From: Angustibacter luteus
Lineage (GTDB): Bacteria > Actinomycetota > Actinomycetes > Actinomycetales > Angustibacteraceae
DNA: 64,000 nt
NCBI RefSeq assembly: GCF_039541115.1
Contig: NZ_BAABFP010000002.1
Span: 248,001-312,000 of the forward strand
Reading direction: 5' to 3'
A program made the position numbers and the translations under genes. Below, piece after piece: positions 2,608 to 57,148 of this stretch. Numbering within the stretch: position 1 is the stretch's first letter; each line of letters starts with the position of its first letter. The notes beneath the pieces were generated by a model. That model saw only the letters and a program-made list of their open reading frames with translations. It was not told the DNA's origin and searched no databases.

Positions 2608-4257
<1,650 letters not shown>

Positions 4258-4270
4258 CCCCCAATCCCCT

Positions 4271-4319
4271 GGTGATCATGCACGTTCGCCCCCATCCGGG
4301 GCGAACGTGCATGATCACC
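4271..4319. terminator. perfect 22-bp stem hairpin made of two convergent 3'-end repeats
   Basis: Arms 4271-4292 and 4298-4319 are perfect reverse complements around a 5-nt loop. The hairpin lies between the convergent stops of pgm (4257) and the ybbN-like gene (4348). Each arm is one copy of the repeat whose core is TGATCATGCACGTTCGCC, and each is in sense orientation for its own upstream gene. A bidirectional termination or 3'-end protection role is inferred. There is no U-tract. Confidence 0.75.
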
Positions 4320-8991: not shown

Positions 8992-9010
8992 GGCGAACGT
9001 GCATGATCAC
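8992..9010 (-). repeat. 3'-end repeat copy downstream of the MarR gene
   Basis: Core GGCGAACGTGCATGATCAC on the plus strand, i.e. GTGATCATGCACGTTCGCC reading in the sense direction 13-31 nt after the MarR stop codon at 9023-9025. It matches the arms at 4271-4319. Confidence 0.8.
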
Positions 9011-28133: not shown

Positions 28134-28153
28134 GGCGAACGTGCATGATCACC
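28134..28153 (-). repeat. 3'-end repeat copy downstream of the 3-hydroxyacyl-CoA dehydrogenase gene
   Basis: GGCGAACGTGCATGATCACC on the plus strand. In the sense direction of the minus-strand gene it begins six nucleotides after the stop codon at 28160-28162. Confidence 0.8.
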
Positions 28154-53160: not shown

Positions 53161-53604
53161 TCAGGCCACCGAGACGTTCTGGCCGGGCGGTGCCGCCTCG
53201 AGCCAGGACGAGAACCCGGTGTAGGACTGCTCGCTCATCGCGAGCTCGACGTACCCACCCTTGCGCCGACATCGCACGATCACGAACCCGGACATCACCG
53301 AGAACGCCTCGACTCCCGCCGGGGTCCGCCGCTCCTGGACCATCAGGTCGCCCCGGCGCAGCACCTGCTGGGGGCGAAGGGCGAACCGGAAGACGGGGTA
53401 CCACTCGATCCGGTCAGCCTCGTACCGGGCGATGCCGAGGCGCCAGCCCTTGCCGTGCGCGCCCGTCGTGGTGCGCAGCGAGCAGTCGAACGTCCCGACC
53501 TTGCGGCTGAGCCAGCGGCGGCGCAGGACCACGGCGAGCGCCGCGGCCACGACCAGGAGCAGCAGCAGTCCGACGACCTCGAGCGGGATGATCAGGCCGT
53601 CCAC
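53161..53604 (-). CDS. DUF2550 family membrane protein
   Basis: A 147-aa protein with one N-terminal helix ([22 protein letters not shown]) and a cytosolic domain: [33 protein letters not shown] and RVGWRR-like [19 protein letters not shown]2550 genes stand next to atpC across actinobacteria, as here: the GTG start is 12 bp after the atpC stop. The C-terminal half resembles a PH-like fold. Function unknown; the conserved linkage suggests it works with the ATP synthase or membrane energy state. Confidence 0.88.
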
Positions 53605-53616
53605 CGCTGCGCCGTA

Positions 53617-53886
53617 TCAGTTGCCGCGGTCGGCGCCGACGGTGGCGCTGTCGGCGATGATCGTCACGCGGTCGTGGTCGACGGACAGGAAGCCGTTGTC
53701 CACCTCGGCCGTCACCTGCTCGCCCTCGCCGGAGATCCGGACCTCGCCGGCGACGAGTACGCCGAGCAGAGGCGCGTGACCGGGCAGGATGCCGATCTCG
53801 CCGTCCGTCGTCCGAGCGACGACGTTCGTCGCCTCGCCGCTCCAGACCTTGCGGTCAGCGGCAACCAGCTCCACGGTGAGCGCCAC
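53617..53886 (-). CDS. atpC: ATP synthase epsilon subunit
   Basis: An 89-aa subunit: the N-terminal beta-sandwich is complete ([36 protein letters not shown]), but the C-terminal helical hairpin that regulates hydrolysis in other bacteria is missing; the protein ends after the sandwich. Short epsilon subunits of this kind occur in actinobacteria. GTG start with AAGGA upstream. It is separated from atpD by 884 bp holding a hairpin and a HIT-like gene, so it may need its own promoter. DUF2550 follows after 12 bp. Confidence 0.92.
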
Positions 53887-53970
53887 GGGGGTCCTTCCGT
53901 CCAGGGATGACCCAACGATACCGGGTGCTTGCCGAGGGAAGGTCACAGGGTGGACCCGATGAGGTCGCCG

Positions 53971-54588
53971 TCACAGCACGGTTCCGCCGTACGAGGCTGC
54001 CAACGCCGCCGCGACGGCCGCGGCGTCCGCGGTGACCTCGTCCGGCGGGGACGGCGGCAGCAGGTCGTCCCACACGACGAGGAACGAACCGCGCAGCTGA
54101 CCGAAGCCCTCGGGCCGGGCGAAGAAGAAGATGTGCAGGTGCGCGCCGCCGTCCCCGATCCGGTAGACGTGGCAGCGGGCGATCCCGGGCAGCGCCTCGA
54201 CCGCCCGGCCGATGTGCACCATCAGGCGGCCCATCTCGGCGGCCAGGTCGTCCGGCAGGTCGGTCAGGTCGTGGTGCGCCAGGGGCTGCAGCATCATCAC
54301 CAGCGGCGCACCGCTGGGCTCGAAGGCGATGAGCCGCCAGCGCTCGTCCCGCCACACCTCACTGACGTCCGTGCCCGGCTCCGCCTTCTCGCAGGCCCCG
54401 CACGGTCGGCCACCCTCACCGGTCCGCGGCGCCTCGGGGAACTCGGCCGGCTGCAACGGCGCGACCCGCAGCCCGTCGACCTCGAACGGAAAGGTCCCCC
54501 ACGACGTCATCCGCGCCACGGCGGCCTGCTTCTCCGCGTCGAAGCCCGCCGTCACCCGCTCGTAGAAAGCCCGCGCATCCTCAGCCAT
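53971..54588 (-). CDS. HIT-like domain protein inserted between atpD and atpC
   Basis: A 205-aa protein with a HIT-superfamily pattern: a Zn-like GGRPCGACEKAEP near 62-72, LVMMLQPLAHHDLTDLPDDL in the middle and the histidine motif GDGGAHLHIFFFARP in the last third. The His-x-His signature suggests nucleotide or nucleotide-sugar hydrolysis/transfer, but the third His of the triad reads Phe, so activity is uncertain. The ATG follows TAGGGT by six bases. Its place between atpD and atpC is unusual. Confidence 0.75.
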   Translation of the reverse strand: MAEDARAFYERVTAGFDAEKQAAVARMTSWGTFPFEVDGLRVAPLQPAEFPEAPRTGEGGRPCGACEKAEPGTDVSEVWRDERWRLIAFEPSGAPLVMMLQPLAHHDLTDLPDDLAAEMGRLMVHIGRAVEALPGIARCHVYRIGDGGAHLHIFFFARPEGFGQLRGSFLVVWDDLLPPSPPDEVTADAAAVAAALAASYGGTVL

Positions 54589-54594
54589 CCGGTG

Positions 54595-54600
54595 ACCCTA
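54595..54600 (-). promoter_or_regulatory. leaderless -10 element of the HIT-like gene
   Basis: TAGGGT (minus strand) ends six bases before the ATG at 54588 and lies right after a 3'-end repeat copy. Confidence 0.45.
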
Positions 54601-54604
54601 CCGG

Positions 54605-54624
54605 GGCGAACCTGCATGATCACC
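54605..54624 (-). repeat. 3'-end repeat copy downstream of atpD
   Basis: GGCGAACCTGCATGATCACC on the plus strand differs from the consensus at one base (AACGTG to AACCTG). In the minus-strand sense it lies 147 bp after the atpD stop, behind the large hairpin. Confidence 0.7.
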
Positions 54625-54680
54625 GCGGGAGGGGTGGCGGCCGGACACGATCAGTCAACCGGGCAGGACCGGCTGGCAAA

Positions 54681-54758
54681 CCGGCGGAGGCCGGGGGACC
54701 GAAGGTCGGCGTCAACGAGCTTGCGAGAGCCGACCGCAGGTCCCCCGGCCTCCGCCGG
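54681..54758. terminator. 78-bp hairpin with 20-bp perfect stem after atpD
   Basis: CCGGCGGAGGCCGGGGGACC (54681-54700) and GGTCCCCCGGCCTCCGCCGG (54739-54758) are exact reverse complements. A nested stem GGTCGGC/GCCGACC (54704-54710, 54729-54735) extends the structure. It begins 12 nt after the atpD stop. It should block or strongly reduce read-through from atpD to atpC, or it is a repeat element inserted there. No U-tract. Confidence 0.75.
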
Positions 54759-54770
54759 GACCACGAACAA

Positions 54771-57148
<2,378 letters not shown>

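Follow-up and report, generated by a model that had tools for sequence, protein, structure and literature searches.

A hairpin and a HIT-like gene between atpD and atpC of Angustibacter luteus: a probable separate epsilon unit in four actinobacterial families

The canonical bacterial atp operon has the gene order atpIBEFHAGDC, and the F1 subunits are a textbook case of a conserved operon with balanced output. In the window, by which we mean the whole 64-kb stretch of Angustibacter luteus DNA that was analysed, atpC is cut off from atpD by a hairpin and a HIT-like gene, as the first-pass annotation had described. All of the elements are present, and the order along the minus strand is atpA, atpG, atpD, hairpin, GCGAACNTGCATGATCAC copy, HIT-like gene, atpC, and DUF2550, beyond which lies a convergent cobalamin adenosyltransferase gene. 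The features of the junction are the following.

54771-56228, minus strand: atpD, encoding the F1 beta subunit and closing the main atp operon (TIGR01039, 782.8 bits, cut-off 462.85).
54681-54758, minus strand: hairpin 3′ of atpD, with a 20-bp outer stem, 3-nt internal loops, a 7-bp inner stem, and a conserved apical loop.
54606-54623, plus strand: one copy of the dispersed palindrome-forming repeat GCGAACNTGCATGATCAC (94 copies in the genome).
54595-54600, minus strand: leaderless -10 TAGGGT of the HIT-like gene, 6 nt before the ATG, with a similar layout in 19 of 35 homologues.
53971-54588, minus strand: HIT-superfamily-like gene, 205 aa, similar to HIT structures by Foldseek and with no Pfam match.
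53915-53920, minus strand: putative -10 of atpC, TATCGT, 28 nt upstream of the GTG start.
53617-53886, minus strand: atpC, epsilon subunit, 89 aa, N-terminal domain only (PF02823, E 1.5e-26; NF009977).
53161-53604, minus strand: DUF2550 gene (PF10739, E 1.8e-44), starting 12 nt after atpC.

The arms of the hairpin, at 54681-54700 and 54739-54758, form a perfect 20-bp stem that encloses the inner 7-bp stem and lies 12 nt past the atpD stop codon, and both the stem length and this spacing agree with the earlier description. The region folds with z = -5.45, none of 200 shuffles being equally stable. The hairpin is the second-longest close inverted repeat in the 64-kb window. A GC-rich stem shortly past a stop codon is a feature of intrinsic terminators; the run of U after the stem amounts to TTT, and the terminator scan returned 0 sites there. 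A simple scan found neither a terminator nor a sigma-70-type promoter, and Rfam gave nothing at the hairpin beyond weak chance matches (mir-H1, well under the gathering score). Judged from its sequence, the hairpin is likely to be a terminator or an mRNA 3′-end element. The neighbouring repeat GCGAACNTGCATGATCAC, counted with up to 2 mismatches, often forms inverted pairs about 30-60 nt apart; its other copies in the window are at 4272-4289, 4301-4318, 8993-9010, and 28135-28152, and the pair 4272/4301 sits between two convergent ORFs, which end at 4257 and 4348.

The epsilon protein matches the N-terminal beta-sandwich domain PF02823 at 92.6 bits (cut-off 27) and NF009977 at 117.8 bits (cut-off 80). 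The start of atpC is most likely the GTG at 53886 and not the listed 53946: conservation among relatives sets in close to this GTG, and the Shine-Dalgarno sequence GGAAGG precedes it. The protein lacks the C-terminal helical domain and has 87 residues from the domain start to the stop. This domain is not universal among F1 epsilon subunits. The same length has a median of 88 in the order and exceeds 97 in only 3 of about 145 loci, whereas epsilon has 119-144 residues in most other sampled families of the class. The short epsilon without C-terminal helices that had been remarked on is thus true of the window and ordinary for the whole order, so it was rejected as a peculiarity of the window. 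Since the loss of the helices is order-wide, it is not tied to the split between atpD and atpC.

For the protein encoded between the two genes, searches against Pfam (E up to 10) and NCBIfam gave no family matches, and in a profile search of PDB sequences HIT proteins scored no better than E 0.038 and 0.11. Its AlphaFold model, of moderate confidence (pLDDT 73), has HIT proteins as its top Foldseek matches, which include a Zn-bound HIT protein (3o0m, E 4.3e-6) and the Ap4A phosphorylase Rv2613c (3ano). H150 and H152 of the HxHxH motif are invariant; the window's protein has Phe at the third position. A CxxC is conserved almost throughout the family. The HIT nature of the 205-aa protein, as proposed in the first pass, rests on this resemblance in fold and on the motif; none of the Pfam HIT models matches it. 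Homologues are scattered over the class, in 65 of 297 genomes at E ≤0.001 and in fewer at strong scores, and a scan of a named collection found relatives in Acidimicrobiaceae only. The leaderless -10 that had been assigned to the gene is present as TAGGGT-N6-ATG. In 19 of the 35 homologues read, a TANNNT lies 6-8 nt upstream of the start, which suggests that the HIT-like gene often comes with a leaderless promoter of its own.

Across the order, excepting the window's own family, the median gap between atpD and atpC is 8 nt and the gap is ≤20 nt in 99 of 140 loci, which bears out the tight atpD-atpC end as the canonical one. Wide gaps bearing a hairpin are found in families f1, f2, f8, f15, and f17, in some members of f13 and f14, and beyond the order in f35, f38, and f47. 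In f17, other genes split atpC from atpD, with gaps of 1.2-12 kb. As read from the translations, these insertions comprise a nucleobase permease (genome G050), a TM2-like protein (G065), formate dehydrogenase genes with a permease (G135), a polysaccharide cluster (G035 and G079), and a permease, HIT, and asparagine synthase (G093); opposite-strand genes lie inside the gap of G093 and G431. The f17 junctions with diverse inserted genes are at loci L178-L183, L338, L343, L344, L349, and L353. In the AtpD tree, the tight-gap families are contained in one well-supported clade, and f1, f2, f10, f17, and f15 branch outside it; with f15 split and outside families intruding, this tree of a single gene gives no more than rough guidance. 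The first pass had named a common and ancient arrangement as evidence against its own reading, and the gene-order survey points to one that is largely common and ancient in the order.

The gap, the hairpin, and a promoter-like motif occur together in four families (f1, f2, f15, and f17). TANNNT was found within 75 nt before atpC in 23 of their 24 wide-gap genomes, where dinucleotide shuffles gave a mean of 4.1 and a maximum of 12, compared to 1 of 18 in f8, f10, f13, and f14, where 1.5 was expected. The motif is also retained in all eight f17 genomes whose gap holds a HIT gene, and TATCGT before atpC is identical in the sister species, G001; this -10 is a short motif with no -35 established. 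Furthermore, the 100 nt after atpD have a fold z below -2 in 22 of the 24 genomes of the four families and in 20 of 91 in tight-gap families, the latter controls showing that GC-rich 3′ regions may give low values for other reasons. Taken as sequence signals, these features have the pattern of a terminator followed by a promoter, and polymerase may respond to them in this way.

The reading that we prefer, with a probability of roughly 0.75, is that the operon ends at the hairpin and that atpC and DUF2550 form a separate unit, an organization that would be widespread in the four families. The main atp operon would end after atpD, with the hairpin serving as a strong or partial terminator or as a 3′-end processing element. 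Transcription would start afresh at the leaderless promoter of the HIT-like gene, and a second start at the -10 promoter 28 nt before atpC would give rise to the separate unit, in which atpC and DUF2550 are probably carried on one transcript. The boundary between the two units accepts other genes, such as HIT-like genes repeatedly, permeases, polysaccharide genes, formate dehydrogenase, and others. Against this reading, epsilon would still arrive by read-through from atpD. The hairpin, the -10 motifs, their conservation, and the insertions are directly observed, and it is from these that we infer termination, promoter activity, the degree of read-through, and any effect on the amount of epsilon. 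The f17 insertions of unrelated genes, with gaps of 1.2-12 kb, would come at a cost if epsilon had to be made from a single shared transcript. The earlier proposal that epsilon is expressed apart from the rest of F1 gains comparative support from the -10-like motif, the structured RNA, and the HIT family with its frequent leaderless -10, but the separation is not unique to this genome; the two-unit layout may be ancestral, or at least widespread, in the four families.

HIT-like genes recur at this junction in separate lineages. The gene lies in the atpD-atpC gap in both genomes of the genus (f1) and in 8 of the 23 HIT-bearing genomes of f17, one of which, G468, has exactly the order atpD-HIT-atpC-DUF2550-CobO-murA, with 133 nt after atpD. 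The sister species has the window's order together with a NUDIX-like gene; this gene (locus L177) follows the atpD hairpin and precedes the HIT gene, and the window lacks it. In f54, a family of another order, atpC-HIT-CobO is found in five of seven HIT genomes and HIT-CobO-murA in a sixth. The HIT-like gene of f54 stands in DUF2550's place, between atpC and the cobalamin adenosyltransferase gene (L331, L332, L334, L335, and L336). Where tested, f54 shows a tight atpD-atpC gap and no hairpin signal after atpD (z about 0); as its HIT gene follows atpC, the gene is not always inserted together with the hairpin, contrary to what had been considered. A genus-specific HIT insertion was ruled out by the junction copies of f17 and f54. 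The gap HIT gene of G471 (L328:1498-1930) seems to be split into two overlapping pieces, by either decay or an assembly error.

In the HIT tree, the window, its sister species, and G468 fall in one supported set, the other f17 gap copies form a second subfamily, and f54 a third. The gap label requires four changes on this tree, at least three of them forced by well-supported branches, so the gene was placed here more than once, or once and then displaced; with different subfamilies at the junction, the linkage is recurrent or old. By a rough chance estimate, not simulated, about one HIT gene in 200 would lie within 10 kb of atpC. One tentative explanation, compatible with a separate epsilon unit, is that ATP synthase and the HIT-like protein act together, the latter perhaps as a nucleotide hydrolase or transferase linked to the energy state, so that its gene was kept beside atpC. 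The recurrence in f1, f17, and f54 and the involvement of different subfamilies with forced label changes speak for such a tie. However, most HIT homologues of the class sit elsewhere, the gene is absent from most genomes of the order, the leaderless promoters of its own argue against co-expression, and the many unrelated genes at the f17 junction mean that an insertion-prone site could explain part of the linkage. A functional tie to ATP synthase is possible, with an insertion-tolerant boundary explaining part of the pattern. It seems doubtful that the epsilon unit of actinobacteria has, time and again, had a HIT-like nucleotide-processing protein as its functional partner, several subfamilies having become established at the atpD-atpC-CobO junction in separate lineages, next to an epsilon unit with a promoter of its own.

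Gap hairpins without a -10 motif are found in f8, in some members of f13 and f14, and, beyond the order, in f35 and f38, and they speak for one long transcript in which the hairpin is a stabilising or REP-like inter-cistron element, HIT and atpC stay in the atp operon, and epsilon is unaffected. The lack of a U-tract after the hairpin is in line with this, as is Streptomyces coelicolor, in which mRNA is comparable along the operon and it is at translation that the Atp subunits are balanced (PMC4895711). Nevertheless, a single transcript is unlikely, considering that the -10 motif is conserved right before atpC only in the wide-gap families f1, f2, f15, and f17, and that the opposite-strand genes in the gap of G093 and G431 speak against a single transcript there. 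The translational balance in S. coelicolor also means that the split does not imply a change in stoichiometry, so the altered subunit stoichiometry suggested in the first pass is unsupported.

The hairpin itself belongs to a dispersed family, whose placement and compensated pairs count in favour of the preferred reading. The first five copies share a rigid layout, with an outer stem of at least 12 bp, 3-nt internal loops, and a 7-bp inner stem, and have an apical loop resembling TGTCGCAAGCTCCTTGAC. A covariance model placed the family, with strong E-values, at 12 or more sites in this genome and at two in the sister species, and at none in 27 other genomes of the order at E <0.8, in agreement with the loop pattern; the count of 12 is a lower bound, 150 of 5274 candidates having been scored. 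A count of only three copies, based on the loop pattern with 3 mismatches, is superseded by the model. Besides 54681-54758, the copies in this genome are at C2:20904, C5:308312, C5:317713, C5:463654, C5:464558, C7:194916, C7:235224, C7:235527, C8:41596, C8:292000, and C8:292195 (contig:position). Compensatory changes occur at 16 of 19 pairs among 14 sequences, and the covariation is 0.638, compared to 0.168 when shuffled and at most 0.175 when slid (63 cells). For nine of these 12 copies, the model match starts 15-24 nt past the stop codon of a sense gene, two back-to-back pairs between convergent genes among them; three do not fit. The place after atpD is taken by a sibling hairpin in the sister species and by an unrelated one in G002, suggesting that the position is kept and the sequence is not. 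Although copies confined to this genus and a second repeat family (GCGAACNTGCATGATCAC) directly adjoining the hairpin might suggest a mobile palindromic element that landed there without a role in transcription, this is quite improbable, given stems that vary with compensation, unlike those of copy-and-paste elements, an orientation and distance to stop codons that are regular in 9 of 12 copies, and unrelated hairpins occupying the position in G002 and other families.

Taken together, the four families seem to run epsilon separately, and the boundary took in many genes with no apparent loss of the enzyme. Two questions become testable: does the making of epsilon have to be tied to that of the other F1 subunits, and can epsilon be separated more readily once it has lost its inhibitory helices? 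Both the HIT linkage and the conserved-loop hairpin family provide new leads. In the open-licence literature, no description of a split of atpC or of a HIT gene at the atp junction was found.

Several known systems can be compared with this locus. The TRIT terminators of Mycobacterium, reportedly introduced by Gardner et al. 2011 (RNIE), are said to be dispersed hairpins of conserved sequence after genes. The window's family is similar to them in its dispersed hairpins of conserved sequence 3′ of actinobacterial genes, but was found in one genus only and has a conserved apical loop and variable stems. Gardner et al. 2011 is cited for TRIT terminators in PMC3526491. In actinobacterial leaderless genes, TANNNT lies about 12 bp upstream of the start (PMC3160421), and the TAGGGT of the window, which begins 12 nt before the ATG of the HIT-like gene, agrees with this, as do many homologues, with no difference seen. 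With the HIT superfamily (3o0m and 3ano), the window's protein shares the predicted fold and the first two histidines of the motif, but it differs in having no Pfam HIT match, Phe in place of the third histidine, an extra N-terminal region, and the CxxC. Compared to the canonical atp operon, the window has the same genes and order up to atpD and a conserved N-terminal domain of epsilon, whereas its atpC is set apart by a hairpin and a gene and has a -10-like motif of its own. An extra gene between those of beta and epsilon, as in the window, was reportedly described by Tybulewicz et al. in 1984 for the atp operon of Rhodopseudomonas blastica; that organism is an Alphaproteobacterium, the gene is another one, and the whole is said to form a single operon.
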